Origin: Aliiroseovarius sediminilitoris
GTDB lineage: Bacteria > Pseudomonadota > Alphaproteobacteria > Rhodobacterales > Rhodobacteraceae
Reading direction: 5' to 3'
DNA: 64,000 bases
Assembly: GCF_900109955.1 (NCBI RefSeq)
Contig: NZ_FOJB01000001.1
Coordinates: forward strand, 2,170,001-2,234,000
How positions within the stretch are numbered: the first letter of the stretch is position 1; each line of letters begins with the position of its first letter. Under the pieces are notes generated by a model. It saw only the letters and a program-made list of their open reading frames with translations, ran no database searches and had not been told where the DNA came from. A program made the translations under genes and the position numbers. Shown here in pieces: positions 1,979 to 53,359 of this stretch.

Positions 1979-4900
1979 TTTGCTTCTCCCCGTCCTTGTC
2001 ATAGAAGACCGGATCGCAGATCCGCGCCTTGATCACCGTGTTCGACCCATCCACCGTCGGAAAGTCCACCACTTCGCCCATCCGGTCCGGTCCATGCTTC
2101 ACAAGCCCCATCGCAATGCCTTTCTTGAGCGTCGGCGAATAATAGGTCGAGGTCACACGCCCGATCATGTTGCGCTGGCCATATTCGTTATTGCCATCGG
2201 CCACCGCATAGGCCCCGTCCGGCAGAACCGATCCGTCCAGCGTTTCAAGCCCGACCAGTTTCCAGCGATCGGGGTCGGTCATGTGGCTGCGCTGTTGGGC
2301 GCGTTTGCCAAGAAAATCCTCTTTCTTCTTGGAAATCGCCCAGTTCAGCCCCAGATCCTGCGGGATCACGGTGCCGTCGGTTTCGTCCCCGATCATGATG
2401 AACCCCTTTTCGGCCCGCATGATGTGCAGACATTCGGTGCCATACGGCATGACGCCGAACTCTTCCCCCGCCTCAAGCAGCGTATCCCAGAAGGCGCGGC
2501 CCTGGCTGGCGGGCACGGCGATCTCGTATGACAGCTCGCCCGAGAACGAGATGCGATAGACGCGCGCGTCGAACTCACCGATCTTGCCGTCTTTCCACTG
2601 CATGAAGGGCAGAGTTTCCTTGGACACATCCATCCCGCCCAGTTTCTCAAGCAGCTTGCGCGCGTTGGGGCCGACCACGGCGACCTGCGCCAGTTGCTCG
2701 GTCACGTTGGCAACATAAACTTTCCAGTCCCACCATTCGGTTTGCAGCCATTCCTCCATCCACGCGTGGATGCGGTCGGCGCCGCCCGAGGTGGTGTGGC
2801 AGAGCCACGTGTCGTCATCTATGCGGGCCACAACACCGTCATCGGACAGGAAACCGTTTTCCGAGCACATCAGACCATAGCGGCATTTGCCGACGGCCAG
2901 GTTCGACATCATGTTGGTATACATCATGTCCAGAAACTTGCCCGCATCCGGCCCCTTGACGATCAGCTTGCCCAGCGTCGAGGCATCCAGCAGCCCCAGC
3001 TTTTCGCGGGTATTCAGGACCTCGCGATGCACGGCTTGCTCGTTGGTCTCGCCCGGCTTGGCATAGCAATAGGGCCGACGCCAATGGCCGACGGGTTCCA
3101 TATAGGCACCCGCGTCTTCGTGCCACTGGTGCATCGGCGTGCGCCGGATCGGCTGGAAGATTTCGTGGCGCGCTTCGCCAGCAATCGCCCCGAAGCTGAT
3201 CGGGGTATAGGGTGGGCGGAAGGTTGTCGTGCCGGTCGCCGGGATCGGTTGACCCAATGCGTCAGAAAGCACCGCCAATCCATTGATATTGGACAATTTA
3301 CCTTGGTCTGTCGCCATACCCAACGTGGTATAGCGCTTGGTGTGTTCAACGCTTTCATAGCCCTCGCGCGCGGCCAACTGCACGTCCGACACCTTCACGT
3401 CATTCTGATAATCCAGCCACATTTTCATGCGTTTCTGATGACCAGCGCCCTGCGGCATGATCCAGACGGGGGCCATGGGCTGCGTGCTTTCGGCCTCCGC
3501 CTTTGGCCCCGCCTTGCGCACGGCTTTGCCGCCTGCCGCCTTGGCGGCCCGCTTGCCTGCCTCATAGGCATTCGACAAGACCCCCGCCAACCCCATCGGA
3601 CCCGAGGCTGAGCCTGCGGTGACAACAAAGGGCTGACCGTCATGCCCGGTGGGTGCACGGTCCGGATCGGGGCGGAAATGCGCCTGCTCCTCGTCCCAGA
3701 TCAGCTTGCCTCCACAATGCGACCACAGGTGCACGACAGGCGACCAACCGCCCGACATGGCGACTGCGTCGCAGGCAATTTCCTCGACCGCGGCACCCTC
3801 GCCCGCTTGGGCGCAGATCGACACGCCCGTCACGCGCTTGCCGCCGTTCACCTTGGCAATCGCCTTGCCAACCTCGACCCGGATGCCGGCGGCGCGAGCG
3901 GCTTCTGCCAACGGGCCGTTGGAATGATCTCGCGCGTCCAGAATAACCGGAACGTCTAGCCCGGCTTCGTTCATCACAAGTGCAGTGCGGTAAGCGTCAT
4001 CATTGTTGGTCACAACCACGGTGCGGTCGCCCACGGACACGCCCCAGTTCACCGCATAATCGCGCACGGCCGAGGCCAGCATCACGCCGGGGATATCATT
4101 GCCCGCAAAGGACAAGGGACGTTCAATCGCACCGGTCGCGGTGACGATCTGCTGCGCACGGATGCGCCACAGGCGATGGCGCGGGCGGTCATCGCCCGGC
4201 GTATGATCGGCCACACGTTCATAGCCCAGCGCATAGCCGTGGTCGTAGACGCCCGATCCCATCATGCGGGTGCGCAGGGTCACATTGTCCATTGCTTCCA
4301 ACTCGGCCAACGTGGCGGCAATCCAGTCATCGGGCGACTGCCCGTCGATCTCGCCCCCGTCAACCGGCGCACGTCCGCCCCAATGGTGGGTCTGCTCCAT
4401 CACCAGCGTTTTCACGCCCGAACGACCAGCGGCCAGAGCAGCCGCCAGACCGGCAACACCGCCACCGATCACCACGACATCGGTGTGGTGATAGAAATGC
4501 TCATAGCGATCCACGTCCGCCTCGGTCGGCACATTGCCCAGACCAGCGGATTTGCGGATGATCGGCTCGAACACATGTTTCCAAGCGGGCGCGGGTGCCA
4601 TGAAGGTCTTGTAATAGAACCCCGCTGGCAGGAAGCGCGCGGCATAGTTGTTCACCACGCCCACATCGAACTCAAGGCTCGGCCAGTGGTTTTGCGAGGT
4701 GCAGGTCAGACCGTCAAACAGCTCGGTCGTGGTGACGCGTTGGTTGGGTTCAAAACGCCCGCCCTGCCCCATGTTTACAAGCGCGTTGGGTTCTTCCGCG
4801 CCGGATGCGACGATGCCACGCGGGCGGTGGTATTTGAACGACCGACCCACCAGCATCTGGTCTTCGCCCAGAAGGGCCGCGGCCAGCGTGTCGCCCTCAT

Positions 4901-39393: not shown

Positions 39394-39966
39394 TTAGCCC
39401 TGCTGTTCAGGTCGAGGAATATTGATCGCAACGGTGTTCGAAAGGTCGATCCGACGCAGTTTCGTCTCGACCACCGTCACTTTTTCCACCTTGATCTTGA
39501 CTGACGGGTGCAGATATCCCGCCGCAACTCCAACGATCTGGCGATCCCTGACGGTCAGGGAAACACCCGCGACCTCGACCGTCAAGGCAATCGGGATGCG
39601 CACTTTTCGCACGTCAACTGACTCACCTAGGGTCAGACGAACCTCTGGGGTGTGCGTCGCTTTGAGTTTGTGCTTCAACAACGCCGCCACCCGCGTCCTG
39701 CCATCCATCGGACCTTTTTCACCCGTCAGGGCTTGCACCGACTTCATGCCCTCCCACGCCTTCAGAAGCGTATCAATCAGCGAGATCGACAGGGCCTCTT
39801 CGACCGCAGCCGCCACAGTTTTGTGCAGGGTTCCGGCGTCCAGCCCTATCCCGGCAAGGCGAACCCCCGGATCGCCTTCGTCCAACGCGGATTTGACGGC
39901 TTCGACAACTGTGCTGAAATCGGCAGGCGGAATGGCAGATTCGAGCGTTTCGGTGCGTTCGGTCAT
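39394..39966 (-). CDS. Hypothetical protein, partner of the envelope protein upstream
   Basis: 190 residues, no signal peptide or membrane helix. A helical N-terminal half (about 15-85) is followed by a beta-rich half with regular hydrophobic alternation (IPIALTVEVAGVSLTVRDRQIVGVAAGYLHPSV, split by charged turns). No family recognised. Its ATG overlaps the stop of the preceding 654-residue gene by four bases (39963-39966), so the two are translationally coupled and probably work together, one cytosolic and one envelope-facing. Confidence 0.7.
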   Translation of the reverse strand: MTERTETLESAIPPADFSTVVEAVKSALDEGDPGVRLAGIGLDAGTLHKTVAAAVEEALSISLIDTLLKAWEGMKSVQALTGEKGPMDGRTRVAALLKHKLKATHTPEVRLTLGESVDVRKVRIPIALTVEVAGVSLTVRDRQIVGVAAGYLHPSVKIKVEKVTVVETKLRRIDLSNTVAINIPRPEQQG

Positions 39967-41927
39967 GACTCGTCGCTCCCGTCTTGTTCACGGATGATGG
40001 TGATGTCGGTCGGCCCACCCCGGTCAACTGTCAGGACGATCTGCGGCATCTGATCTGGTTTGACCGACATCGTGGGCGTGGTGTCGGGCACGGCATCCAC
40101 GTGGGGAATGATCGTTGGCGCAGATGGTTTTTGCTCCTGCATTTTCTTGAAAAATCTGAAGCCCTTGATGGGCCATATGACGCTGCCCAGAAGCAACAAA
40201 CCGACCGCACCGGGCAATAGCCAAGCGGGAGGGCCAGCAGCAAGACGGCGCAGCGCAATGGTGCGCAGGTCGTGTTCTGCGCCGGACCGATCACGCGCGC
40301 GGATCAATATCGGGCGGCTCTGTCCGGGCGGCGGCATCGCAACCGATATGGCACGAGGTTCACCGCCATAGGTCCAGATTTCGGTCATGCCATCGCCCAT
40401 CTCGATGCTGAGTTCAGCATCGGGCCAGGCATTCACAAGATCGACGAAAACTGTCGTGTCAGGGGTTGTCGCCTCGATCATATCCTCCTCAAGGTCATCG
40501 GCCCTTATTTGCAATCGCATCTCCTGCAATCGGAAAAGCGTCAGCGATTTGCGTGCGCGGATCGTGCCCTCCCTATCGACCGCAAGAAAGATGGCGACGC
40601 TGCTTTCATTGGGGCTGGGCATCGGCAGATCGATCGCGATCGGCGCACCGGCATAGCGCTGCCGGTCGCCCACATCAGAGTTGCCGATCTGCCAGTCCAC
40701 GCTGGCACCGGGCCACGGATCGCGTAATGTCATGACCACCTGCACAGCGTCAGTGCTTGCCTCAATGCGCCCGCCTCGCAACTGCTCTGATGCGAGGATC
40801 AGTGCCATATCGGGCAATCGCCTAAGGGTCAGATCTGTCTGGGCAAGGCTGCGCGCACGACCGTCCAATGCCTCGATACGAACGCTCTGCACCTCGCCGG
40901 GGGCGAGCACAACGCGATAAGTTGTTTCACCGCGCTGAACCCGGCGGTCCGGCTCGGGGTCGCGGCGATCTGCGGACATGCGGATCCACTCGACCGCTCC
41001 GGTATTGCGCGGATCGCTGATGGCGACAGCAACCAACTGTTCAGCCTGTGTCGGATCGCTGAGCACCTGCGCGGTGATTCCAATCCGCGCACGCGCCAAA
41101 GCCGTTAGCAACGCTGGCCAATTGTTAAATGGCGTCTGATCGAACCGCCGGATGGCCGCACAGCTTCGGGCCCCGATAAGTCCGTCGACACTGCCGACAT
41201 TCAAACCAAGAGCATTCAAGTCAAACTGGATCTCCCGCGCCATGGCGATGTCCAGCCCTGTGGGGGATCCGCAGGCCGGAATGCGGCGAACGGCAACGCG
41301 GCGCGCACTGGCATTGCCTATTCGGTCTTCAGCAGAAATTGTCACCGGTATCGGCGCATAATCATTCGGCAACCTGATCTTGAACTCATACCGGTCCCCA
41401 TTGCGCTGAACCGATGTTGCCCCATTTGCCACGGCATTCGCCACGCCGCTTGGGTCTTTGATATCGGCGATGATGGCAACTGACCCGGAGGATGCGGTAA
41501 ATTCGTCGGCAGCAGGCTGGATCGTCGGGCCATCACGGTCTGTGGGTGTCGGACCGGGATCGGGTCGCGCTGAACTCAAAGCTGCCCTCACCCACCTGAC
41601 CGCCGCCCCTTCGATCAGAAGATCGCATCGACCGGCGCGCAGTGCCAACGGGCCGGACCGGGCGGTGATCAACAGGGTTCTGATGCCACGTTCATTCAGG
41701 AACCGCGCAAAAGTCCGATCATCTGTGCAGATAACCTGCCTTTGCAAAAAACTTTGAAGGTTGAGGTTTGACTGCCCTGCCAACATGTCGATGAACAAAG
41801 ATCGCATCCGGTCATCACCAAGCGTCAGCCCGTCCGGCAGGTTTTGCGCAAACGCATCGGCCAGAAATACCAGGCAGACAAACGCGGCAGAAATACCGCG
41901 GCGAATCCAGCGCATCTTGTTATCCAT
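39963..41927 (-). CDS. Membrane-anchored envelope protein with PG-binding-like domain and tandem repeats
   Basis: 654 residues. Signal sequence at about 8-28; a periplasmic Ig-like stretch at about 145-215; a peptidoglycan-binding-1-like domain at about 228-266 (REIQFDLNALGLNVGSVDGLIG); three tandem modules of about 95 residues (about 277-365, 366-461, 462-556), the last two clearly alike (LTL(R/F)RL...PWPGASVDW / AWPDAELSI); one membrane helix at about 568-587 and a cytosolic tail of about 65 residues. No enzyme motif. Topology suggests a protein that reaches the cell wall and signals or attaches to a cytosolic partner, probably the coupled 190-residue protein. Function unknown. Confidence 0.72.
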   Translation of the reverse strand: MDNKMRWIRRGISAAFVCLVFLADAFAQNLPDGLTLGDDRMRSLFIDMLAGQSNLNLQSFLQRQVICTDDRTFARFLNERGIRTLLITARSGPLALRAGRCDLLIEGAAVRWVRAALSSARPDPGPTPTDRDGPTIQPAADEFTASSGSVAIIADIKDPSGVANAVANGATSVQRNGDRYEFKIRLPNDYAPIPVTISAEDRIGNASARRVAVRRIPACGSPTGLDIAMAREIQFDLNALGLNVGSVDGLIGARSCAAIRRFDQTPFNNWPALLTALARARIGITAQVLSDPTQAEQLVAVAISDPRNTGAVEWIRMSADRRDPEPDRRVQRGETTYRVVLAPGEVQSVRIEALDGRARSLAQTDLTLRRLPDMALILASEQLRGGRIEASTDAVQVVMTLRDPWPGASVDWQIGNSDVGDRQRYAGAPIAIDLPMPSPNESSVAIFLAVDREGTIRARKSLTLFRLQEMRLQIRADDLEEDMIEATTPDTTVFVDLVNAWPDAELSIEMGDGMTEIWTYGGEPRAISVAMPPPGQSRPILIRARDRSGAEHDLRTIALRRLAAGPPAWLLPGAVGLLLLGSVIWPIKGFRFFKKMQEQKPSAPTIIPHVDAVPDTTPTMSVKPDQMPQIVLTVDRGGPTDITIIREQDGSDES

Positions 41928-42272
41928 TCAATCAATGATCGGCGGAAGGCGCCCAGAAACAGCGATAATACTAGCACAACTTTACAGAGAACCCAAAATG
42001 CAGCCCGTGACCCGCATCGCACAGAATGCATTCCCTTGGGCGCGAACGCTCGGCACAGGATGACGTGATGTCGGATGGGGCAGGAGTTCAGATCGCAGAA
42101 AATCTGCTTTCAGGAACATCGAAAATAGATGAGGCAGATTGTCCAAACCACATGATCAATTACCCCGGATTTGTCCCACTGTTGCAAAAAAACCGACCTG
42201 AGGCGAGAATAGGAGCATTATTTAAAACCTAAAATTGATTCTATTTCGAATATCTTACCGAGGAGTTTAGCC
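41928..42272. other. Promoter-bearing gap upstream of the redox operon
   Basis: 345 bases between divergent operons. A 54-codon frame (42068-42232, MSDGAGVQIAENLLSG...) is open but has a poor ribosome-binding site and no known relative; it could be a remnant or a short leader gene. The last 100 bases are A+T-rich, as expected for a promoter of the operon beginning at 42273, but I cannot place convincing -35/-10 boxes. Confidence 0.35.
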
Positions 42273-44684
42273 ATGATGCTCCGTGTTATTTCGTGTGTTT
42301 TGGCCGGTCTGTTGATGCCACACTCAGCACTGGCCCAGCTTTTCTCAGGCCCTCTGGACGAAGCGCTTTTGGTTGGGCGGGACGAAACCACCTTCCCCCC
42401 GGCAGACGAAAACTACTTTGCCGATATGGACAACGGCATTGCGCTAACCGCTGACGAGGTCAAGGGGCGCAACATGTGGATGGTCTGGACCGGCGGCAAT
42501 GACCTGTTGTGGGACACGCTGACGGTGGACACGTTCGGGCAGTTCGATCTGCTGAAGACTCTGTCCTCGCACCCCAGCCTTGCCGCCAAGCGCAGCAACA
42601 GGTTCGAGCAGTTGGGCTTGATCAACGAGCCGTGCTTTGACGAGGCGACCGGTCCGGTCGCAGATCGTTACGGGCTGTGGCTGGACATCCGGCGCGACGA
42701 TTGCGCCCCCGACCCCTTCGCCAACGCCGAGAAATATCCTGGCGTCGAGATTGGCGCGCGCGGGCGCAACATGCCCGTCTGGTCTTACTACGGAGAGCCG
42801 ACCGGCGTGCTTGGCCTGCGCCTGTTTCCAAACCCCGAATTTGATGAACGTGCCGAAAACCTTTGGGATGCCGAACGTTTTTACAATGATCCCGACTACT
42901 ATAACGACGATGATCTTGTGCGGCCCTATCGCGTCGGCATGTCCTGTGCGTTCTGCCATGTCGGACCCAGTCCGATTGACCCGCCCGCCGACCCGGAAAA
43001 CCCCGAGATGCGCAATCTGAACGCCACCGTAGGCGCGCAGTATTTCTGGTTCGACCGGATCTTTGCGTGGAAGCCCGACAAGCGGCAATACATGGTGCAG
43101 CTGATCCACACCGCGCGACCCGGCACGCTGGATACCTCGCTTGTGTCGCCCGACTACATCAACAACCCGCGCACGATGAACGCGATCTATCTGCTGGAAG
43201 AACGGCTGGCCGTCGCCCGTCGTTTTGGCGAAGAACGGCTTCAGGGCGGCGAGTTGGACAACAAGCAGTTTCAGGACTACGTCCCCGACGGTCCCCTGAC
43301 CGAATACTTCGAAGACCCGGACCTGAGCTTCAGCCCCCGTGTCCTGAAGGACGGGGCGGATTCGGTGGGGGCGCTGGGGGCGCTCAACCGGGTTTACATG
43401 AACATCGGGCTGTTCAGCGAGGAATGGACGCGCCATTTCAACCCCATCGTGGGCGGGCGCGACATAACGCCGATCAAGATCGAGACTGCGCAGAAAAACT
43501 CGGCCTATTGGCGCGCGACCGAAGATCAGACCCCGCTGACTGCGCTTTATTTCCTGAAAGCCGGGCGGCCAGATCGGCTGGTGGACGCGCCGGGCGGGGG
43601 GGATTTTCTGACCGAGGATGCCGCACAGGTGGATCGTGGCAAGACAGTTTTTGCCGAGAATTGCGCCGGGTGCCATTCCTCCAAGCTGCCGGAAAGCGCC
43701 TATGAGGCAATGCCGGGCGGCTGTTCCGGCGCCGGTTATCTGGAGTGTTTCAACCGCTATGGCGCGTTGACCCGAACCGAGGATTTCAAGGCCCAGATGC
43801 GCGAGATCGTGCTTGCCGAGGATTTTCTGGAGGGCAACTACCTGTCCAGTGAGTTGCGCATTCCGGTGACTCTGCTGGAAACCAACGCGTGCAGCCCGCT
43901 GGCGACCAACGCGATTGAGGGCAACATCTGGGATAACTTCTCGTCCTCGACCTACAAGGCGCTGCCGTCGGTGGGCACGATCAAGGTGCATCACCCGAAG
44001 ACCGGCGAGGAGTATGACTATGAGATGCCGGCTGGCGGACGGGGCTATACCCGTGTGCCGTCGCTGATCAGCCTGTGGTCCTCGGCGCCTTATCTGCTGA
44101 ACAACACGGTCGGTTATTACAATCACGACCCGTCCGTCGCCGGGCGGATGGCAGCGTTCGAGGATGGAATCACCAAAATGCTCTGGCCCGAAAAGCGCCT
44201 GCGCGACACGGTGCTGGGCGACAAGGTCCCCGGCCTGATAGACCGCACGACCGAGCAGAGCTATCTTATCGTGCCACGCGGTTTTCAGCCCGATTTTCTG
44301 GTGAAACTGCTGACGCCCTTGCGCGACGATCTGCCGTGGCTGTTCGATTTGGATGGCAATATCGAACTTGGCCCGATCCCGGCGGGCACGCCCATCGGGC
44401 TGCTGGCGAACCTGAATGTCCGGCTGGATCAAGCCGATCTTCTGGAGCGGTTGAGCCATGATTTCGAGTTGGCCAAACTGATCATCAAGATCAAGCGCAA
44501 CCTGAAGGAACTGCCCGACGACGCGAGCGACGAGCAGGCCCGCGCGATCTTTGCGGATCTGATCGAGCCACTCTTGGAACTGAGCAAATGCCCCGATTTC
44601 GTGGTCAATCGCGGGCATTATTTCGGGACCAAGCTGGAAGACGACGACAAGAACGCACTGATCGCCTTTCTCAAACGCTTCTGA
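42273..44684 (+). CDS. Large periplasmic di-heme cytochrome c (MauG/CcpA/RoxA-like)
   Basis: 803 residues with a signal peptide (cleavage near ALA-Q, residue 21) and two haem c motifs, CAFCH at 225-229 and CAGCH at 464-468. The region after the second haem (RVPSLISLWSSAPYLLNNTVGYY) resembles the C-terminal pocket of di-heme peroxidase/MauG proteins and of the rubber oxygenases RoxA/RoxB. It is much longer than bacterial CcpA (about 330 residues). Likely a periplasmic oxidase, oxygenase or peroxidase; substrate unknown. GAGGAG lies upstream of the ATG. First gene of a six-gene operon; 11 bases separate it from the GMC gene. Confidence 0.82.
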   Translation: MMLRVISCVLAGLLMPHSALAQLFSGPLDEALLVGRDETTFPPADENYFADMDNGIALTADEVKGRNMWMVWTGGNDLLWDTLTVDTFGQFDLLKTLSSHPSLAAKRSNRFEQLGLINEPCFDEATGPVADRYGLWLDIRRDDCAPDPFANAEKYPGVEIGARGRNMPVWSYYGEPTGVLGLRLFPNPEFDERAENLWDAERFYNDPDYYNDDDLVRPYRVGMSCAFCHVGPSPIDPPADPENPEMRNLNATVGAQYFWFDRIFAWKPDKRQYMVQLIHTARPGTLDTSLVSPDYINNPRTMNAIYLLEERLAVARRFGEERLQGGELDNKQFQDYVPDGPLTEYFEDPDLSFSPRVLKDGADSVGALGALNRVYMNIGLFSEEWTRHFNPIVGGRDITPIKIETAQKNSAYWRATEDQTPLTALYFLKAGRPDRLVDAPGGGDFLTEDAAQVDRGKTVFAENCAGCHSSKLPESAYEAMPGGCSGAGYLECFNRYGALTRTEDFKAQMREIVLAEDFLEGNYLSSELRIPVTLLETNACSPLATNAIEGNIWDNFSSSTYKALPSVGTIKVHHPKTGEEYDYEMPAGGRGYTRVPSLISLWSSAPYLLNNTVGYYNHDPSVAGRMAAFEDGITKMLWPEKRLRDTVLGDKVPGLIDRTTEQSYLIVPRGFQPDFLVKLLTPLRDDLPWLFDLDGNIELGPIPAGTPIGLLANLNVRLDQADLLERLSHDFELAKLIIKIKRNLKELPDDASDEQARAIFADLIEPLLELSKCPDFVVNRGHYFGTKLEDDDKNALIAFLKRF

Positions 44685-44695
44685 GGAGCGGACAA

Positions 44696-46579
44696 TTGGA
44701 GCCAGAACATGACTATATCGTCGTCGGCTCCGGGGCTGGCGGAGGGACCGTGGCCGCACGGTTGGCCGAGAACGGGATGCGTGTGCTGCTTTTGGAGGCG
44801 GGTGGCGACCCCCGCACCTTGTCCGGTGGCGTGCGCGGAATGGACGAGGCCGCGAACCGGTTGCCGGAAGACTACGATGTGCCCGCCTTTCACCCTTTCG
44901 CGACCGAGAATGCGGCGATCCGGTGGGATTTCATGGTCAACCACTATCACGACAAGAATACACAGGCACGTGACCCGAAGGCCGGGCCGGATGGCGTTTT
45001 GTATCCGCGCGCAGGCACTTTGGGCGGCTGCACAGCGCACAACGCGATGATTTTCTTGTATCCGCACAATGCCGACTGGCAGGGGATTGCGGATCTGACC
45101 GGCGATGACGGCTGGGCGCCCGCGGCCATGCGCAAGGTCTTCCAGCGGTTGGAAAACTGTCGTCACCGGCCGGTGCAGCGCGTGTTGAACACGTTCGGCA
45201 TCGACCGCACCGGCCACGGTTTCGATGGCTGGTTGTCAACCGAAAAAGCGATCCCGCGTGCGGCGATGCGGGATGACGATATCATGGATATGGTGCGTAA
45301 CTCGCTGCGCGAAAGCTGGGGTTCGGCACAGGATTTCCTGAAAAGGCTGCGTTGGCTGGCCAACAGCGCCGCCGACCCCAATGACCGCGACCGGATCGAC
45401 GATGACGCTGTCGGCATGGTCTATACACCCTTGACCACGCGCAAAGGCGTGCGGGTGGGTGCGCGCGAACGCGTGCTGGACGTGGCACAGCGTCACCCGG
45501 ATCGGCTGACGGTCGAACTCGACGCGCTGGCGACGCGTGTTTTGCTGGACGATTGCAACCGCGCCATCGGGGTCGAATACCTGAAAGGTGCGCGGCTTTA
45601 CCGCGCACATGCAGCCCCGTGCAACGCGCCGGGAGAAACGAAACAGGCCATGGCCGCACGCGAGGTCATTCTGGCAGGGGGGGCCTTCAACACGCCGCAG
45701 CTTTTGATGTTGTCTGGCATCGGCGACCCGAAGACATTGGCGCCGCATGGCATCACGCCAAAGGTCACACTGCCCGGTGTCGGGCGGTCGTTGCAGGACC
45801 GATACGAGGTCTGTGTGGTCAATCGGATGGCGTTTGACAGCTGGGACAGCATGATCCAGTGCAGATATGAAAAAGATGACGGGCTTTGGCGGCAGTGGCG
45901 GGCGCGCGGCGACGGTCTGTATGCCACCAATGGCGCAGCCCTTGCCGTGATCCGCAAATCGTCAGAGACGCAGCCCCTGCCCGACTTGTTCTGCATGGCG
46001 CTTCTGGGACGGTTCAGCGGCTATTACCCCGGCTATGCCGCCGATCTGGCGCAAAGCCGCAACCATCTGAGCTGGGCGGTGTTGAAAGCGCACACGCAGA
46101 ACCGCGCGGGTCGGGTGACGTTGGCCTCGGCCGATCCGCGCGACAGGCCGGTGATCGACTTCAACTATTTCGCGGAAGGCGGCGAAGAAGACCTGTCGGC
46201 TGTCGTTGAAGGGGTCAAATTTGTGCGTAAGCTCTGCCAGCCGCTGCACGAAGCCGGGCGCATCAAAGCCGAGGAAATCCCCGGCCCGGAGGTGCAGACC
46301 GACGCCGAGATTGCGCAATTCGTGCGCGACCATTGCTGGGGTCATCACGCGTCCTGTTCCTGCCCTATAGGGCCAGCGGACAAAGGCGGGGTCCTCGACA
46401 GCCGTTTGCGGGTTCACGGCACCAAAGGCTTGCGGATCGCAGATGCGTCCGTCTTTCCGCACATCCCCGGATTTTTCATCGCGTCCGCCGTTTACATGAT
46501 CGGCGAGAAAGCCGCCGAGATGCTGCTTTCCGACACGCAATCCCTCACTCAGCACGCGGAGGTGCAATATGGCACATGA
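44696..46579 (+). CDS. GMC-family FAD-dependent oxidoreductase, TTG start
   Basis: 627 residues. N-terminal FAD motif YIVVGSGAGGGTVAARL, GMC signature regions LYPRAGTLGGCTAHNAMI and AREVILAGGAFNTPQLLMLSGIG, and the C-terminal active site WGHHASCSCPIG with LRIADASVFPHIPGFF. GMC enzymes oxidise alcohols, sugars or sterols; a fatty-acid photodecarboxylase branch also exists. No signal peptide, so cytosolic. The TTG at 44696 is chosen because GAGGAG lies 7 bases upstream and the family N-terminus begins here. Overlaps the next gene by 11 bases. Confidence 0.85.
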   Translation: MEPEHDYIVVGSGAGGGTVAARLAENGMRVLLLEAGGDPRTLSGGVRGMDEAANRLPEDYDVPAFHPFATENAAIRWDFMVNHYHDKNTQARDPKAGPDGVLYPRAGTLGGCTAHNAMIFLYPHNADWQGIADLTGDDGWAPAAMRKVFQRLENCRHRPVQRVLNTFGIDRTGHGFDGWLSTEKAIPRAAMRDDDIMDMVRNSLRESWGSAQDFLKRLRWLANSAADPNDRDRIDDDAVGMVYTPLTTRKGVRVGARERVLDVAQRHPDRLTVELDALATRVLLDDCNRAIGVEYLKGARLYRAHAAPCNAPGETKQAMAAREVILAGGAFNTPQLLMLSGIGDPKTLAPHGITPKVTLPGVGRSLQDRYEVCVVNRMAFDSWDSMIQCRYEKDDGLWRQWRARGDGLYATNGAALAVIRKSSETQPLPDLFCMALLGRFSGYYPGYAADLAQSRNHLSWAVLKAHTQNRAGRVTLASADPRDRPVIDFNYFAEGGEEDLSAVVEGVKFVRKLCQPLHEAGRIKAEEIPGPEVQTDAEIAQFVRDHCWGHHASCSCPIGPADKGGVLDSRLRVHGTKGLRIADASVFPHIPGFFIASAVYMIGEKAAEMLLSDTQSLTQHAEVQYGT

Positions 46580-47012
46580 TATCGAGAGTTTGATGGACAT
46601 GGAACAAGAGGAGCTGGACGAGCTGTTCTCAAGCGTTGCCGCCGGCCCCATCCCGGATGGCGAGGCCGAAGGCACCGCGATCATCGCGCCGGGCACACGG
46701 TTCACGCCGCTGATCTCGCGGTTCATCAACGGTTTTGCCTGGCAAGGGAAGGTTTTCGACAGCGAAAAAAGCGTGCTGAAAAACCGCATCCTGCCCTTCG
46801 GGCTGAACGCCATTCTGGCCAAGGTTTACAAGGATAAAAGCTGGCTGGATGGCAACGAATGTATCGTGCTGGATTATTCCGACACGTCGATTGTGGCGCA
46901 ATGGATCCGCGACGAGATCCGCCTGATCGAGCCGGGCTTGTATCTGGGCAAGGTCTATTGGGACGACACGCGACTGATTGACTTCGCCCTTGATTTCAAC
47001 GCGGAAAGCTAG
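46569..47012 (+). CDS. Small protein of unknown family in the redox operon
   Basis: 147 residues, acidic, no membrane or signal segment. The N-terminus is Asp/Glu/Met-rich (MDMEQEELDELFSS) and may be flexible; the rest looks like a compact beta-barrel-type domain with WQGKVF, SWLDGNECIVLDYSDTS and IEPGLYLGKVYW. Loosely reminiscent of GXWXG/DUF4334 proteins, but I cannot confirm that. GGAGG sits 6 bases before ATG inside the GMC gene. Perhaps a lipid- or cofactor-binding accessory. Confidence 0.65.
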   Translation: MAHDIESLMDMEQEELDELFSSVAAGPIPDGEAEGTAIIAPGTRFTPLISRFINGFAWQGKVFDSEKSVLKNRILPFGLNAILAKVYKDKSWLDGNECIVLDYSDTSIVAQWIRDEIRLIEPGLYLGKVYWDDTRLIDFALDFNAES

Positions 47013-47018
47013 ATCCTG

Positions 47019-48320
47019 ATGACACCGCAAGACACATTCTTCATTCTTGCCCCGGTCGCCGAAGGCCGGGCCGAAGATTTGGTGGCCTTGCTCAACACGA
47101 TGACGGTGAAGCCAGGTTTCGCTGATCCCCAAAACCGGCTGCTTCCCTTTGGCCGGTTTGACCAGTTGCACGTCGCGCGGTTTTTTCTGGTCGAGGCTCA
47201 GACCTGGCGCGACATCGAGGCTTATGGCGAGCCCCCGCAACCCTATCCCCTCCAGATTGCGTTTCTTGGCGATGTGGACGGAGATCGGCACGCGTTTCTA
47301 AGGGAACTGGTCGCCCATTGTGCCGACGGCCTGTCCGAAATTTTCAGCCATTGCAACGGGTTCGGTCAGGGCGCCGATCTGTTGCGCTGGATGGAAGATC
47401 ACAATGTCGACGAGGCCGCCAACTACGTAAACACACGCGGTCGAACCGTGCGTCAGGTGCACGAAGAAGCGACGCTTGCCACGACCTTGCGAACCAAGCT
47501 GGACGCCATCGTTGAAGAGCGAGGGACAGCTGATCCATTCGGACTTCACAAGCAATTGGTCGAACATGTCCGGCGGCAACAGGCCAACGGGTCGCTTCAC
47601 CTGACGCCACCCGCGCGACTGAGTCTGCGCCAACGTGTTACCGGTTGGGTCGATCTGCTGAGCGTGCCAGTGATCCTGCTGGTGATCTCGCCCCTTCTGC
47701 TGATGGCCTTGCCGTTTTTTCTGGTATGGCTGCGCACCCTTGAACGCTCTGACCCCGAGATCTTGCCCCGCCCGGACGACGCACGCTTGGCCGAACTGAG
47801 CCGCTATGAGGATCACGATGTGACCAACCCGTTTTCCGCCTTTGGCGATGTGAAGCCCGGCCCGTTGCGCCGCATGATCACGACTGTCGCGCTTTACCTG
47901 CTGAACTACTCGGCCCGGCATATCTATGGGCGTGGCTACCTGACCCGTGTCCAGACCATCCACTTCGCGCGATGGGTCTTTGTCGATGACAAGCGCCGGG
48001 TCATGTTTTGCAGCAATTATGACGGCGCCGTCGAAAGCTATATGGATGATTTCGTGAACAAGGTCGCCTGGGGCCTGAACCTCGTTTTTTCAAACGGTGT
48101 CGGCTATCCATCGACGCGTTTTCTGATCAAGGGCGGGGCCGAACAAGAGGATAAATTCAAGCGTTTCCTGCGCAACCGCCAACTGCCCACGCAGGTCTGG
48201 TACAAAGCCTATCCCGGCCTGACCGCGCGGGACCTGGCCCGCAACAGTGAAATCCGATTTGGGCTGGAAAAGCGCCCGAATGGCGCCAAGGCCCTGCGCA
48301 ACTGGGTGTCAAAGATATGA
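47019..48320 (+). CDS. Membrane protein with duplicated ferredoxin-like domains
   Basis: 433 residues. Two regions resemble each other: about 48-116 (DQLHVARFFLVEA ... FLRELVAHCADGLSEIF) and about 312-363 (QTIHFARWVFVDD ... YMDDFVNKVAWGLNLVF). Each has the pattern of a strand H(V/F)AR(F/W), a second strand, then a helix, as in dimeric alpha-beta barrel proteins such as the DyP and chlorite-dismutase folds. Between them is a strongly hydrophobic stretch (about 213-237) that anchors the protein. No catalytic motif recognised. It is next to the DyP gene and overlaps it by four bases. Confidence 0.7.
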   Translation: MTPQDTFFILAPVAEGRAEDLVALLNTMTVKPGFADPQNRLLPFGRFDQLHVARFFLVEAQTWRDIEAYGEPPQPYPLQIAFLGDVDGDRHAFLRELVAHCADGLSEIFSHCNGFGQGADLLRWMEDHNVDEAANYVNTRGRTVRQVHEEATLATTLRTKLDAIVEERGTADPFGLHKQLVEHVRRQQANGSLHLTPPARLSLRQRVTGWVDLLSVPVILLVISPLLLMALPFFLVWLRTLERSDPEILPRPDDARLAELSRYEDHDVTNPFSAFGDVKPGPLRRMITTVALYLLNYSARHIYGRGYLTRVQTIHFARWVFVDDKRRVMFCSNYDGAVESYMDDFVNKVAWGLNLVFSNGVGYPSTRFLIKGGAEQEDKFKRFLRNRQLPTQVWYKAYPGLTARDLARNSEIRFGLEKRPNGAKALRNWVSKI

Positions 48321-49831
48321 GCAACGCGCCCGACATACCCACCGACGCCGTGGAATTCGACGACATGCAAGGGCTGATCCGGTTCGGTCATGGTGCCCTG
48401 ATCGAGGCTGAGTTCATTTTATGCACCGTGAAGGATCGCACGACAGCAGGGACCTGGCTGCGGAACGCACCGGTTACTTCGGCAAAGACGCTGGATGCCC
48501 CTCCTGACACCGCGCTGCAAGTTGCCTTCACCGCGACTGGTTTAACAGCCCTCGGCCTGACTGACGACGCCACCGACGGGTTTGCTTATCCATACCTGTC
48601 GGGGATGGCTGGTGAAGAAAGCAGGTCCCGCCGTTTGGGCGATACTGGGGCGAACGCGCCGGACAAATGGGGCTGGAACGATCAGGCGACGCATGTGCTG
48701 ATCATGCTCTATGCCCGCAAGGGCGGATTGAGCGGATGGAAAGACACTGTTCTAAACGCCACCTTCGACACCGCGTTTGCACGGGTTCACAGCTTCCCCA
48801 CCCGCCCGAATGACGGGACCGAGCCGTTTGGATTTCGCGATGGCATCTCTGAGCCGAAGATCGACTGGAAAAATGCACACCCACCCTCGAAACACGGGCG
48901 GGAAGAGTTCAGCAATCAGATCTCGCCAGGCGAAGTCGTGCTGGGGCATCGCAACGAATACAACGCGCGCTCGGCTTCCCCGTCGCTGAGTCCATCTGTT
49001 CCGGGCAGCGAGGTTTTGGCCGACGCGCCGGACACAGACGGCCTGCGTGATCTCGGGCGCAACGGCAGTTATCTTGTGTTTCGCCAGTTGAACCAGGATG
49101 TGCCAGGGTTCTGGCGCTACCTGGACACCGCCACGCAAGGCGACCCAAACCGCCGCAACGCCCTTGCCGCCAAGATGGTGGGGCGGCAGATGGATGGCAC
49201 CCCGCTTGTGCACAACACACGCGATGTCGCCGGATCACCGCACAGCAACGATTTCACCTATGAAGATGATGTCGACGGCCTGTCCTGCCCGCTTGGCGCC
49301 CATATCCGACGCGCAAATCCGCGCACCGGGGATCATCCGCATCACATCGAAGGACGATTTGCTTGGTTGCTTAGCACTTTGGGGTTCCGGCGACGACGTG
49401 ACAAACTGCCGGGGCGGCATGATCTGGTCGCGTCGACCCGGTTTCACCGACTGGTGCGGCGGGGGCGGGTCTATGGCTCCAGAATATCGCCGGAGGATGC
49501 GCTGAAAGACGGTGCCGCAATGGGCGAACGCGGCCTTTTGTTCGTCTGCCTTTGTGCGGATATTGTGCGGCAGTTTGAATTCGTTCAGAACGCGTGGATC
49601 GCATCGCCCAAGTTCGACGGGTTGACCGGCGAGGCTGACCCGCTGCTTGGCAGTCGCGCGCCGATCAGTGGCGTGCCAAGTGACGGGTTCTCGATCCAGA
49701 AGGCAGATGGCGTGCCGGACCGGCACCCCCACCTGCCCCGGTTTGTGACCGTAAAAGGCGGCGGCTATTTCTTCCTGCCCGGCCTGCGCGCCCTGAAATT
49801 CATTGCCAGCCGTGGCAGTAAGGAGGTCTGA
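48317..49831 (+). CDS. DyP-type peroxidase
   Basis: 504 residues of the dye-decolorizing peroxidase superfamily, a haem b peroxidase. The distal motif GxxDG is at 172-176 (FGFRDG, Asp175) and a probable axial His329 is in CPLGAHIRRANPR; a second conserved block is RFHRLVRRGRVYG. No signal or Tat peptide, so cytosolic unless exported by a partner. Longer than bacterial A/B-type DyPs, closer in size to the fungal-type or class C/D enzymes. Stop codon abuts the next start. Confidence 0.88.
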   Translation: MSNAPDIPTDAVEFDDMQGLIRFGHGALIEAEFILCTVKDRTTAGTWLRNAPVTSAKTLDAPPDTALQVAFTATGLTALGLTDDATDGFAYPYLSGMAGEESRSRRLGDTGANAPDKWGWNDQATHVLIMLYARKGGLSGWKDTVLNATFDTAFARVHSFPTRPNDGTEPFGFRDGISEPKIDWKNAHPPSKHGREEFSNQISPGEVVLGHRNEYNARSASPSLSPSVPGSEVLADAPDTDGLRDLGRNGSYLVFRQLNQDVPGFWRYLDTATQGDPNRRNALAAKMVGRQMDGTPLVHNTRDVAGSPHSNDFTYEDDVDGLSCPLGAHIRRANPRTGDHPHHIEGRFAWLLSTLGFRRRRDKLPGRHDLVASTRFHRLVRRGRVYGSRISPEDALKDGAAMGERGLLFVCLCADIVRQFEFVQNAWIASPKFDGLTGEADPLLGSRAPISGVPSDGFSIQKADGVPDRHPHLPRFVTVKGGGYFFLPGLRALKFIASRGSKEV

Positions 49832-51028
49832 ATGCACAGGATCCTGATCCCAATTCGCCGCCTGATCCATCGCGCAACGCAGGTCGGACTGCATGTCGAG
49901 CGGCGGTTGGAGCCATTCTTTCGTCAGCGCCTGAACGCCTGGCTTCGCCCGCCGCTGGCAAAGTGGATCCAGCGAACGAAGAACAAAAAGCGCGAGGATC
50001 TTGGGTTGGCATTGGCGGAAGAAAAAATCTTCGATTGGGAAGAAGAGGCGCTTCAAACCATCATTGATGAGATGCGCGAGCAGATGAACCTGCATTTTCA
50101 ACCTGGCGCCTATGAGCGCGGCGGAAACACCAAGACGCACGGCCTGGTGCGCGCGACCCTTACTGTGTTGCCCGACCTGCCCGATCATCTGCGCCACGGG
50201 GTGTTTGCGACCCAACGGGATTATCCGGCCTATATCCGCTTTGCCGGCCCCGGCCCCGACGTGCCCGAGGATATTCGCGATGTGGGCTTCGGGTCGATGT
50301 CGGTGAAGTTGATGGACGTGCCCGGCCCGAAGCTGATGGAGGAAGAGAAGTTCACGCAGGACTGGCCCGCCGTCGTGACACCCACCTTTGTCACACCCGA
50401 CGCCCGCGAAAATGCCAAGCTGCAATATTGGAGCACCATTGACGAGCCGCTTTGGTATTTCCTCAACCCGAAAGATAGCCATTTGCTGGATTTCCTGATG
50501 CAGGGGCTGTGGAACGAGACGCAATTTAACCCGCTGGGGCAGCGTTACTACAGTTGCGTGCCCTACCTGTTGGGCGAAGGGCGGGCGATGCTCTATTCCT
50601 ATGTGCCGCGCACGGACGTGCCGATGGACATCCCCGGCGTACCTTTTGGCCGCGTGCCGCCGAATTACCTGCGCGACAACATGGCCCGGACGCTGCGTGA
50701 CAAGCCGGTCGAGTTCGACATGGTGGTGCAGATACAGACTGACCCGCACCTGATGCCGATCGAGGATGCGTCAGTCCTCTGGCCCGAAGATCTGTCGCCA
50801 TGGATCCCTGTCGCGCGCATTCATGTCCCGATGCAGGATTTCGACACACCCGCCCAGATGGCCTTTGCGCGCAATCTGCGGATCAATCCCTGGCATTGCC
50901 TGCCCGCGCACCGCCCGTTAGGCAATCAGAGCCGCGCGCGGCGGCGGATGTATCAGGAACTGGCAGCGTATCGGCAACACATGAACCTGGCGGACCATGT
51001 CGAGCCGACCGGAGATGAGCAGTTTTAG
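49832..51028 (+). CDS. Short catalase-family haem protein
   Basis: 398 residues against about 480 or more for true catalases. Distal His103 in KTHGLVRATLTV, then YPAYIRFAGPG and DVGFGSMSVKLMDVPG, and a probable axial Tyr374 in RARRRMYQEL. It lacks the C-terminal part of true catalases. Short catalase-like proteins of this kind include mini-catalases and, in animals, allene oxide synthase domains, so it may handle organic hydroperoxides rather than H2O2. AAGGAGG lies 5 bases before the ATG. Basic N-terminus, no signal peptide. Last gene of the operon; no clear terminator follows. Confidence 0.8.
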   Translation: MHRILIPIRRLIHRATQVGLHVERRLEPFFRQRLNAWLRPPLAKWIQRTKNKKREDLGLALAEEKIFDWEEEALQTIIDEMREQMNLHFQPGAYERGGNTKTHGLVRATLTVLPDLPDHLRHGVFATQRDYPAYIRFAGPGPDVPEDIRDVGFGSMSVKLMDVPGPKLMEEEKFTQDWPAVVTPTFVTPDARENAKLQYWSTIDEPLWYFLNPKDSHLLDFLMQGLWNETQFNPLGQRYYSCVPYLLGEGRAMLYSYVPRTDVPMDIPGVPFGRVPPNYLRDNMARTLRDKPVEFDMVVQIQTDPHLMPIEDASVLWPEDLSPWIPVARIHVPMQDFDTPAQMAFARNLRINPWHCLPAHRPLGNQSRARRRMYQELAAYRQHMNLADHVEPTGDEQF

Positions 51029-51092
51029 CTGCCCATGGGTGCCGGTCAAAGCGGCGAAGCCAGACGGTCAACCGGATGGCAGACGACTGCAT

Positions 51093-51749
51093 TCAAGCAA
51101 CGCCCCACCAACGCAGCGTTTGTGCGCAGTGATGGTCAATAGCCTGCAACGCGCGCTCGATATCTCTGTTGTGCATGGCATCTATGATTGCCAGATGTTC
51201 GTCCATCGCCGAAACGATACGATCCTGAAGAAACGGGCGCACATTCTGGATGATCGCGATGCGCATTCGGTTGGCATCATAAGCGGCCACCAGTTGAGAG
51301 TTTTCCAGCCCTCCGGCTAGATAATTATGCAGTGACAGATCGACAGCGATGGCCTTTGGCGGAAGCTCCGGCCCTGCATCGGCCTGTGCGGCCTTGCGCA
51401 TCGCGTCGTGTTGCTGGCGCAGGGCGTTCAAACCCGACAAGGCGTTGCGCGATATCCGTCGCCGTGCGCCCTCCTGGTCCAGCACCATACGGAAATCGAG
51501 ACACTCGCGAATGGTGTCGGGAAGGGCTTCCATCACCTGCACACCGCGCTTTGGAAATGTGGCGACCAGACCTTGCGAACTGGCCTGCTTCACGGCCTCA
51601 CGCACCGCTGCAATCGGAAAGTCCAGCAGGGCAACCAGTTGCGAGATGGAAATGAACTGACCACCGCGCAGCTTGCCGGTTCGCAACGCGGACCACAATT
51701 CTTCCTGCGCCTTATCGGCCAGAAGTTGAACGTCGCGTGATTGGGTCAC
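51093..51749 (-). CDS. GntR-family transcriptional regulator (FCD type)
   Basis: 218 residues: winged helix at about 10-75 (GGQFISISQLVALLDFPIAAVREAVKQASSQGLVATFPKRG) and an FCD ligand domain with metal-binding Asp and His residues (DLSLHNYL, DEHLAIIDAMHNRD, DHHCAQTL). The start is GTG with GGGGAAG upstream. Divergent from the NCS1 permease gene, which it probably controls; its 3' end converges on the redox operon. Confidence 0.87.
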   Translation of the reverse strand: MTQSRDVQLLADKAQEELWSALRTGKLRGGQFISISQLVALLDFPIAAVREAVKQASSQGLVATFPKRGVQVMEALPDTIRECLDFRMVLDQEGARRRISRNALSGLNALRQQHDAMRKAAQADAGPELPPKAIAVDLSLHNYLAGGLENSQLVAAYDANRMRIAIIQNVRPFLQDRIVSAMDEHLAIIDAMHNRDIERALQAIDHHCAQTLRWWGVA

Positions 51750-51819
51750 GGCTTCCCCGCTTTCTGCATTCTCAATTAAAACCTCAAAGTGCTACGTGAT
51801 TTTCTTGATAGCTGCAAAC

Positions 51820-51830
51820 TAGAATATCTA
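51820..51830. promoter_or_regulatory. Candidate operator between the GntR and NCS1 genes
   Basis: TAGA-ata-TCTA, a small palindrome in a strongly A+T-rich intergenic stretch, lies between the divergent starts. Position and base composition fit an operator or promoter, but the motif is short and unproven. Confidence 0.3.
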
Positions 51831-51916
51831 CTAAAATGTTAGTTGCAAGTTCAATTTTCAAGATGTTCAGCAGAACGTCAAACTGCCGCCCACTGGGCGG
51901 TCGCAGGGAGGAAAGC

Positions 51917-53359
51917 ATGGCTTCTATCGAAGAAACACACGTCGTCCACGGCGGCACGATGGATCCGGAGGGCAACACACTTAACCCGGTCGGTGCCGAC
52001 GAAAAAACCTGGGGATGGTTCGCCATTTTCAACATTTGGGCCAATGACGTTCAATCGCTGTTTGGATATTCGCTGGTTGCGTCGCTGTTTATTTCATACG
52101 GTGTAGGAGGTTGGACGGCCTTTGCGGCGCTGATCGCCGCCGGACTGTTTGTCATGTGGATGGTCAATCTGTCCGGCGCTGCCGGTGAAAAATACGGCAT
52201 CCCCTATCCAGTCCTTGCCCGCGCCAGTCTGGGCACACAGGGCGCAAAACTTCCAGCAATTCTCCGCGCAACGGTCGCGGTGTTCTGGTACGGGGTTCAG
52301 GTCTATTTCGCCTCGACCGCCGTGGCTCTTTTGATCCGCTCGATCACCGGGGCAAGCGGAGGGGCGGAAATCCTTGGCCTGACTGGCATTGACTGGTTTT
52401 CATTCATAATCGTTTGGGCGTTTCACATTGTGATCTTCTGGCGTGGCATGAACTGGGTCGAAACATTCCTGAATATCGCTGGCCCGTTTGTCTACATCGT
52501 GATGATCGGTCTGGTGATCGTCCTTTGGCAACGGTCCGACGGTCAGCTTCTGTCCGCTACAGCGACGATCTTCGCCAACCCCGAAGGCACGTTCTGGACC
52601 GAGCTTAAAGGGTTCGTTGCCATTGTTGGAACAATGGTGGCCTATTTTGCCGCCGTGATGATCAACTTCAGCGATTTCTCGCGCTATGCCAAAGACAAGC
52701 GGACCATGGTTCTGGGCAACCTTGCGGGATTGCCGTTCAACATGATCCTGTTCTCGGCGCTTGCATTGTTGACCACAGGCGGTGCCGCCGTTGTCTTCGG
52801 TGAAGAAATCATCAATCCAACCGAGATTGTCGAACGGACCGACAGCGTGCTTTTGGGCGTTATCGCCGCGATCACATTCTTCGCGGCAACCGTCGGCATC
52901 AATCTTGTGGCCAACTTTATTCCCGCCGTTAACGGCATCGCCAACCTGTCACCCGAGAAGATCAGCTTCCGCAAGGCAGGCTTGATCACATCGCTTTTCG
53001 CGCTGGTGATTGGCGGGTTCTGGAACAGCTTCATCAGCCAGTTCGGGATCAGCGGCTTCGTCAACACTTTGGGAGCCGTTCTTGCGCCGATCTTCGGGAT
53101 CATGATCGTCGACTACTATCTGCACCGCAAAGAGGTTCTGAGAGAAGACGACCTGTATAACATGGGCGAAGGCATCTATCACTACAACAATGGCTGGAAC
53201 AGTGCGGCAGTCAAAGCGTTCGGCATCGCAGCCATCTTCTCGGTCGCGACGGTCTGGGTGCCGTGGTTCGCGATCTTGTCCGGCTTCAACTGGGTGGTTG
53301 GCGCGATCCTGGGCGGCGTCATCTACAACGTAATGGCGAAGGATAACGTGACGGTCTGA
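51917..53359 (+). CDS. NCS1 nucleobase:cation symporter-family permease
   Basis: 480 residues and about twelve membrane helices. Family marks: WGWFAIFNIWANDVQSLFGYS in helix 1, GIPYPVLARASLG, MINFSDFSRYA and GIMIVDYYLHRKE. NCS1 carriers import hydantoins, allantoin, uracil, cytosine or related compounds; the exact substrate cannot be set, and no catabolic genes are adjacent. The ATG at 51917 has AGGGAGGAAAG directly upstream. A strong terminator follows. Confidence 0.9.
   Translation: MASIEETHVVHGGTMDPEGNTLNPVGADEKTWGWFAIFNIWANDVQSLFGYSLVASLFISYGVGGWTAFAALIAAGLFVMWMVNLSGAAGEKYGIPYPVLARASLGTQGAKLPAILRATVAVFWYGVQVYFASTAVALLIRSITGASGGAEILGLTGIDWFSFIIVWAFHIVIFWRGMNWVETFLNIAGPFVYIVMIGLVIVLWQRSDGQLLSATATIFANPEGTFWTELKGFVAIVGTMVAYFAAVMINFSDFSRYAKDKRTMVLGNLAGLPFNMILFSALALLTTGGAAVVFGEEIINPTEIVERTDSVLLGVIAAITFFAATVGINLVANFIPAVNGIANLSPEKISFRKAGLITSLFALVIGGFWNSFISQFGISGFVNTLGAVLAPIFGIMIVDYYLHRKEVLREDDLYNMGEGIYHYNNGWNSAAVKAFGIAAIFSVATVWVPWFAILSGFNWVVGAILGGVIYNVMAKDNVTV

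Follow-up and report, generated by a model that had tools for sequence, protein, structure and literature searches.

What do six adjacent genes for heme and flavin proteins accomplish together in a marine alphaproteobacterium? The question is raised by a block at positions 42273 to 51028 of a 64,000-nucleotide stretch of the Aliiroseovarius sediminilitoris genome (contig NZ_FOJB01000001.1, positions 2,170,001 to 2,234,000 of the forward strand; assembly GCF_900109955.1, 3.41 Mb in six contigs), which in its whole length is referred to here as the window. An earlier note made from the sequence alone had proposed a single pathway that oxidizes a hydrophobic compound (lipid, isoprenoid, or sterol-like) and disposes of the resulting peroxides. 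Comparison across genomes makes it probable, if far from assured, that the six genes encode a pathway for fatty-acid oxygenation and lipid-hydroperoxide processing, that is, an oxylipin-like metabolism. Two observations carry this reading: the same families cluster in many genomes, and the gene for the putative first enzyme is exchanged in some loci for one resembling fatty-acid alpha-dioxygenases.

The six open reading frames lie in one orientation, on the + strand, with junctions of +11, −11, +6, −4, and 0 bases, all as previously described. The first, g1 (42273 to 44684; 803 amino acids [aa]), encodes an exported diheme c-type protein with a signal sequence recognized by eye; it is a distant relative of RoxA, FadCcp, and NF040606 and is proposed here as the dioxygenase. 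It is followed by g2 (44696 to 46579; 627 aa, TTG start), a GMC oxidoreductase expected to bind FAD; g3 (46569 to 47012; 147 aa), which has no known family and is predicted to form a calycin-like beta barrel; and g4 (47019 to 48320; 433 aa), also without known family, in which one domain occurs in two copies flanking a hydrophobic segment and which accompanies the DyP gene as its partner. The last two are g5 (48317 to 49831; 504 aa), a DyP-type peroxidase, and g6 (49832 to 51028; 398 aa), a catalase-related heme protein. The diheme, GMC, and DyP labels of the earlier note held up, as g1 has two CxxCH motifs, g2 has both GMC domains, and g5 matches DyP families. Scans of the window proteins against Pfam and NCBIfam left g3, g4, and g6 without a name in either library. 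We infer that the block is cotranscribed. A scan for sigma-70-type promoters was negative for the + strand of positions 41900 to 51900, and neither promoter-like sites (1 against 3.0 expected from shuffles) nor terminator-like sites (12 against 10.3 expected) gave a signal.

Conservation of the gene set

A scan seeded with g4 covered the genomes of 84,980 species and yielded 88 confirmed relatives, of which the best 80 loci were kept; genes were called present at a tblastn E value of ≤1e−5. Contig ends cut 31 of these loci to less than 20 kb, and the presence counts are therefore lower bounds. The sample includes several metagenome bins, which may be misassigned, and Variovorax is overrepresented in it. 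The DyP gene is present in all 80 loci, g3 in 73, g6 in 71, g1 in 58 (a count that takes in three divergent homologues, in L061, L119, and L127, with 26 to 31% identity), g2 in 52, and the complete set of six in 45. In the 49 loci that reach 20 kb or more, the figures are 48 for g3, 48 for g6, 42 for g1, 37 for g2, and 37 for all six.

In 80 of 80 loci g4 and DyP share a strand, and their matched regions lie −6 to 886 bases apart. Gene order and strand vary among the 45 complete loci, with seven arrangements in all. That of the window is found in 36 of them and six others in the remaining nine, including the divergent arrangements g6− g3+ g4+ g5+ g2− g1− (L106 and L111) and g3+ g4+ g5+ g6− g2− g1− (L117). 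Since the clustering survives rearrangement, the genes are likely to be functionally linked. Record titles of these loci name Roseovarius, Litoreibacter, Rhizobium, Variovorax, Rhodoferax, Rhodanobacter, Sedimenticola, and Methylomonas, as well as Verrucomicrobia, Acidobacteria-type, Gemmatimonadaceae, Planctomycetota, Chloroflexi, and Solirubrobacterales assemblies. The arrangement is not a product of chance; the same families recur jointly in records of several phyla. Both genes that the earlier note could not name, whose homologues it expected beside DyP, catalase-like, and GMC genes elsewhere, do adjoin such genes in many genomes.

Closer to the source organism, g4 is present in 15 of 101 genomes of relatives, among them 8 of the 21 genomes of the genus (its own included), and in 6 of 240 drawn from the class; a housekeeping role was rejected on the basis of the genus count. 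A DyP homologue lies near the g4-like gene in 18 of 18 matched genomes other than its own, among them distant cases in which only the C-terminal domain of g4 is recognizable. The g3 profile, used as an independent seed, matched 3 of 398 genomes (its own included), with g4, g5, and g6 alongside in both of the others. The g1 profile matched 4 of the 398 (again including its own), with g2 adjoining g1 in two of the three others; g4 was found in none of these three at an E value of 0.001.

An interchangeable front end

In 6 of the 49 longer loci the diheme gene is absent and a heme-peroxidase gene resembling alpha-dioxygenases is found in its place. With g1 in 42 loci and only the alpha-dioxygenase-like gene in 6, one front end or the other accompanies the set in 48 of 49, the remaining locus (L133) being the most distant. 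A long heme-peroxidase gene occurs in 10 of the 103 loci searched, which include some places fetched twice, and 9 of the 10 belong to the set of 80. Seven of these nine gave no match to g1 and g2; L082 and L128 have both front ends.

Two of the replacement proteins were scanned, those of L062 and L110. Both match the Pfam animal heme peroxidase family (E values of 6e−65 and 3e−57), and their nearest PDB matches are plant fatty-acid alpha-dioxygenases (5e−54 and 4e−53). The motif YRLH is kept in 10 of 10 members, with invariant Y640, R641, and H643 (L062 numbering). In the rice alpha-dioxygenase (alpha-DOX), the catalytic Tyr and the proximal His lie in Y379-R380-M381-H382, according to the sections of PMC8720084 consulted. 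The plant segment HTIDWT, which by its spacing carries rice H311, reads HTIEWT in L110. An enzyme type with an established role in making fatty-acid hydroperoxides thus takes the place of g1 beside the same back end.

Because the diheme gene is exchanged for a fatty-acid alpha-dioxygenase-like gene, fatty acids are the more probable substrates of the pathway than sterols or isoprenoids. The idea that a single pathway handles a hydrophobic compound and its peroxides is the one that best fits the conserved set and is retained here, but its sterol and isoprenoid options lose ground, as the swap favors fatty acids.

The diheme protein g1

Two heme c motifs, CAFCH (C225 to H229; 42945 to 42959, + strand) and CAGCH (C464 to H468; 43662 to 43676, + strand), are kept in 41 of 41 rows of the g1 alignment (A9), where, as in all alignments below, the count includes the row of the window. 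A C-terminal GH-x-x-G is likewise kept in 41 of 41 rows. Its His, H782 of GHYFG (44616 to 44618, + strand), aligns with the GHEY or GHEF of NF040606 members in a global profile alignment and may be the second axial ligand of the C-terminal heme, as the counterpart of PA2077 H611 and RoxA H641.

NF040606, a model named for diheme cytochrome c peroxidases, is matched by 19 of 19 members of a second alignment (A5; the window protein and 18 relatives), with a best E value of 2e−10. A comparison profile was built from 14 NF040606 members, all above the cutoff, and with the global-alignment flag g1 scored 97% against it over 534 columns. This alignment matches up the second heme motif. It also pairs the segment SLISLWSSAPYLLNNTVG in g1 with SLNGIWATAPYLHNGSVP in NF040606, and NRGHYFG...ALIAFLKRF with NSGHEY...LLEYLKTL. 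The spacing between the two heme motifs is 239 in g1 and 232 to 237 in 13 of the 14 NF040606 members; the values given in the part of PMC4496055 consulted are 245 for PA2077, 235 for PA2078, and 199 for RoxA. An AF2 model of g1 has a mean pLDDT of 83.8. A RoxA fold for g1 was considered and is not supported, as Foldseek, a weak test in this case, returned no significant match, and in sequence searches of the PDB g1 and its profiles matched only chance rows and the heme-motif stretch of other cytochromes. By the tests applied, g1 is a divergent branch related to the RoxA/oleate-10S-dioxygenase family and a member of neither RoxA nor FadCcp.

This placement bears on the possibility that g1 acts like RoxA or RoxB and cleaves a hopanoid, a carotenoid, a terpene, or a polyisoprene fragment, the other enzymes then oxidizing the aldehyde and ketone products. 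The RoxC and RoxB models do match 3 and 2 of the 19 A5 members (best E values of 0.0006 and 0.003), although neither is among the NCBIfam rows of the window g1. GMC enzymes include sterol oxidases, and one locus (L052) has a cholesterol-oxidase-like GMC gene (240 bits, with a cutoff of 850), as well as an alpha/beta hydrolase gene, next to g3 to g6. Isoprenoid cleavage is nevertheless unlikely: the swap partner resembles a fatty-acid alpha-dioxygenase and keeps its catalytic motif, the heme spacing of g1 is closer to that of FadCcp than to that of RoxA, and the MauG motif of RoxA is not kept in g1.

The back-end proteins

The GMC assignment of g2 is clear, with 111.3 and 67.5 bits for the Pfam domains GMC_oxred_N and GMC_oxred_C against cutoffs of 24.6 and 23. 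For g3, neither Pfam nor NCBIfam gave a match up to an E value of 1. Its AF2 model (pLDDT 79.3) has a single fold match at an E value of ≤0.001, 4mve (TM 0.60, E value of 2e−4), which is presumably calycin-like, followed by cellular retinoic-acid-binding proteins with weak scores. A calycin-like, lipid-binding barrel is a plausible description of this modeled fold.

No Pfam match was found for g4, and the only rows returned by NCBIfam (E values of 0.064 and 0.22) and by the PDB (0.64 and 0.69), two in each case, are at chance level. Its N- and C-terminal domains are homologous to each other (hhalign probability of 96%, E value of 3e−9, 76 columns) and are separated by a hydrophobic, presumptive membrane segment at about residues 209 to 237 (47643 to 47729, + strand), the limits of which are approximate, having been read off the sequence and alignment A7 by eye. 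The idea that g4 is itself a DyP homologue was rejected when a profile-profile comparison of g4 with g5 found nothing, and what is claimed is partnership only. No consistent Pfam match emerged among the 58 g3 rows and 39 g4 rows scanned; g3 and g4 are families absent from the Pfam and NCBIfam libraries searched.

The g5 protein exceeds the cutoff of Pfam Dyp_perox_C (26.0 against 20 bits) and is below that of TIGR01413 (80.4 against 100.5 bits). Its closest structures are the DyP-related 8re3 and 8re2 (E values of 2.5e−36 and 2e−35). Residues G172 and D175 and the heme His, H329, are kept in 38 of 38 rows and G176 in 37; together they make up a GxxDG and heme His that we take to be the DyP motif.

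The description of g6 as a short catalase-like protein is fair in that the best PDB match of its profile is the coral allene oxide synthase (AOS) 1u5u (E value of 0.0021) and the RxxxY motif is kept, but the relationship is remote, and the window g6 matches neither Pfam catalase nor any other Pfam or NCBIfam family up to an E value of 1. Proximal residues R370, Y374, and R381, the last an Arg at +7 from the Tyr, are kept in 17 of 17 rows. In coral AOS the proximal residues are Y353 and R360 and the distal pair is T66-H67, as given in the portion of PMC5617202 consulted, and the spacing of R370, Y374, and R381 in g6 fits that of Y353 and R360. The distal pair of the window g6 is T102-H103, and the residue preceding the distal His position is Thr in 16 of 17 rows and Ser in 1.

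Proposed pathway

In the fatty-acid pathway that we propose, the exported g1 would insert O2 into an unsaturated acyl chain to give a hydroperoxide, a step that in other genomes would fall to the alpha-dioxygenase-like enzyme. The hydroperoxide could then be converted by g6 and g5 into an alcohol, ketone, aldehyde, or epoxide, with g4 as the partner that may hold the DyP at the membrane. In a third step, the GMC flavoenzyme g2 would oxidize the hydroxyl or aldehyde product, and the calycin-like barrel g3 might bind the lipid intermediate or hand it over.

A number of results weigh against this proposal, and several of them concern g1. Its score against NF040606 is 32.5 bits, below the cutoff of 150, and the NF040606 model has no match in the organism's own genome at an E value of 0.001. 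The default local run of the profile comparison also gave 97% but over only 27 columns, around the second heme, and the first heme motif is not aligned in the global alignment. The His of the MauG motif is Leu609 in g1, Leu in 32 of 41 rows, and His in 6, so that the g1 segment APYLLNNTVG fails the motif P[YF]xHN[GS]SVP, whereas RoxA, RoxB, PA2077, and PA2078 have this His (motif and ligand numbering from the parts of PMC4496055 and PMC6311187 consulted). Foldseek found no PDB match to the g1 model at an E value of ≤0.001, and RoxA was not in the 21 rows returned, which is a weak test given that RoxA is about two-thirds loops, as the consulted part of PMC6311187 describes it. The divergence of three of the g1 homologues counted above belongs here as well. 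For g6, the distal His (H103) is kept in 11 of 17 rows, with Gln in 3 and Tyr in 3, leaving 6 of 17 without it; a distal Asn, at a place located by eye, is present in 1 of 17 rows, which is not that of the window. The GMC gene is absent from 12 of the 49 longer loci and is thus not essential to the set. Two genomes have g1-g2 pairs but no g4, which makes the front end separable and divides the block into two submodules, g1-g2 and g3-g4-g5-g6. Patatin was rejected as a general neighbor, being recognized by Pfam only in L050 and L127 and by tblastn only in L083, L095, L096, L102, and L106, with pieces of two giving no Pfam match. Finally, no clear fatty-acid gene was found among the three window neighbors scanned with Pfam and NCBIfam.

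An improbable alternative is that the block serves peroxide defense only, with lipid or organic hydroperoxides of other origin being detoxified and g1 acting as a peroxidase-type diheme enzyme rather than as an oxygenase. DyP, catalase-related, and diheme peroxidase families can all act on peroxides, and the name carried by NF040606 points the same way. What this explanation leaves unaccounted for is the replacement of g1 and g2 by an enzyme of hydroperoxide-making, alpha-dioxygenase-like type, as well as the GMC flavoenzyme, many GMC enzymes being themselves producers of H2O2. Catabolism of aromatic or lignin-like compounds by the DyP, with H2O2 from the GMC enzyme as in fungal wood decay, where GMC-peroxidase pairs supply H2O2, is hardly credible, even though DyP is discussed together with lignin in several papers among the matches listed, as far as the text consulted goes: no export signal was seen by eye in g5 or g2, the exported enzyme being g1, and the alpha-dioxygenase swap, the AOS-like g6, and the calycin-like g3 would be left unexplained.

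If the fatty-acid pathway is real, oxylipin-type metabolism would span Alpha-, Beta-, and Gammaproteobacteria and records labeled Verrucomicrobia, Acidobacteria, and others. We also put forward, more tentatively and with greater doubt than belief, a widespread, modular bacterial oxylipin cascade in which interchangeable fatty-acid dioxygenases (a new diheme subfamily or an alpha-dioxygenase) feed a membrane-held back end, where DyP, with g4 as a near-obligate partner, and a catalase-related isomerase or lyase make defined products from lipid hydroperoxides. To our knowledge, bacterial DyP peroxidases mostly lack an established natural substrate. One DyP branch belongs to a conserved set that includes a partner of its own, g4, and recognizable dioxygenase-type genes, which makes the substrate question directly testable, and if the cascade exists, a large branch of DyP would gain its long-missing physiological substrate. 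The families of g3 and g4, which have no Pfam names, gain a functional context.

Variant loci and genomic neighbors

Neighbors other than the six genes were inspected case by case and not counted over all loci. Natural fusions were seen in several of them: DyP with a catalase-related domain (about 878 aa; L053:15753-18386), DyP with a P450, adjoining a g4-like domain (L039:713-3487), and a single 1202-aa frame that joins a g4-like domain to DyP and has a C-terminal region matching nothing in Pfam (L038:9925-13533). The genome of L053 also contains the alpha-dioxygenase-like gene and, beside g3, a second gene of the catalase-like kind. A P450 gene lies beside DyP in L031 and L035, and in L031 an LCAT-type lipase gene is next to the P450 and DyP genes. 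The fusions, lipases, and P450 neighbors are compatible with lipid release, oxygenation, and hydroperoxide conversion. A further family of 553 to 749 aa occurs near divergent g1-like genes (L061:7661-9910, L119:4048-5721, L051:11719-13416, and L127:7078-8739), and three members scanned had no Pfam match over the cutoff. A locus from a Verrucomicrobia assembly (L089) carries an additional g1-like gene (64 to 2634) and then a g2-like gene (2848 to 4761) upstream of the set.

In two genomes of the genus, L027/L058 and L028, the block is flanked as in the window, by a dcd-like gene on the left and scpB on the right. None of seven window neighbors tested was found within the 20 kb fetched for L023 to L026, indicating that the block occupies other places in the chromosome or has been relocated. 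The L022 contig is short and begins inside the block. Directly downstream of the block in the window (51093 to 53359) are a divergent GntR/FCD regulator gene and a gene for an NCS1-type (allantoin/purine) permease. Among the genus loci searched, only L027/L058 has these two genes beside the block; L028 and the others do not, and the two are therefore probably unrelated to the block. To the left (39963 to 41927, − strand) lies a gene for a 654-aa protein whose one family match, to a peptidoglycan-binding motif, is weak and below the cutoff.

Comparison with known systems

A close parallel to g1 and to the logic of the block is the oleate-diol synthase operon of Pseudomonas aeruginosa (PA2077, 10S-DOX; PA2078, 7,10-DS; FadCcp). 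Like g1, its enzymes, as described in the text consulted, are exported diheme c-type proteins with two CxxCH motifs separated by about 240 residues and a C-terminal His, and, like the block, the operon pairs a maker with a remover of hydroperoxide. According to the same part of PMC4496055, both hemes of PA2077 are required for the formation of 10-H(P)OME, and overexpression of PA2077 is toxic, an effect ascribed to its hydroperoxide and relieved by coexpressed PA2078. Unlike the block, that operon has two genes, and the results of PMC4496055, in the part consulted, make no mention of DyP, GMC, catalase-related, g3-like, or g4-like proteins. It also differs from g1 in having the MauG-motif His, and the sequence similarity is remote.

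The rubber oxygenases RoxA and RoxB share with g1 two hemes and the order CxxCH, CxxCH, MauG-like segment, and C-terminal His (PMC6311187, consulted in part). They differ in having the MauG motif that is not kept in g1 and, for RoxA, in heme spacing. The g1 protein scores below the cutoffs of RoxB and NF040606, and no fold match was found. Coral catalase-related AOS/hydroperoxide lyase resembles g6 in its proximal Tyr with Arg at +7 and its distal Thr-His pair (PMC5617202, likewise in part); it is fused to a lipoxygenase, whereas g6 stands alone, has no distal Asn by eye, and matches weakly. DyP peroxidases (TIGR01413; PDB 8re3 and 4au9) have the GFxD and heme His found in all g5 rows, but g5 is preceded in every g4-seeded locus by a partner family of its own. 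The fungal dioxygenase-P450 fusions of linoleate metabolism, as presented in the part of PMC13049297 consulted, follow a like logic, a heme dioxygenase feeding a second heme enzyme, of which the DyP-P450 fusion of L039 is reminiscent; the window's operon contains no P450, and the likeness drawn here is one of logic.

Plant alpha-DOX (PIOX/alpha-DOX) is the closest solved relative of the protein found in place of g1-g2 in Sedimenticola, Methylomonas, Methylomicrobium, and Gemmatimonadaceae loci, a type that is not present in the window. The replacement protein has 936 to 1040 aa against 621 to 652 aa in the plant chains, and YRLH in place of the YRMH of the rice enzyme. The consulted part of PMC8720084 already reports alpha-DOX sequences from five bacterial phyla, and the new part is the position beside this back end. 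In the openly licensed literature, among the matches listed and as far as titles and the beginnings of abstracts reveal, we found no description of the gene set, the swap, or the families of g3 and g4. The component enzymes fall into known classes; the novelty appears to lie in the set, the swap, and these two families.

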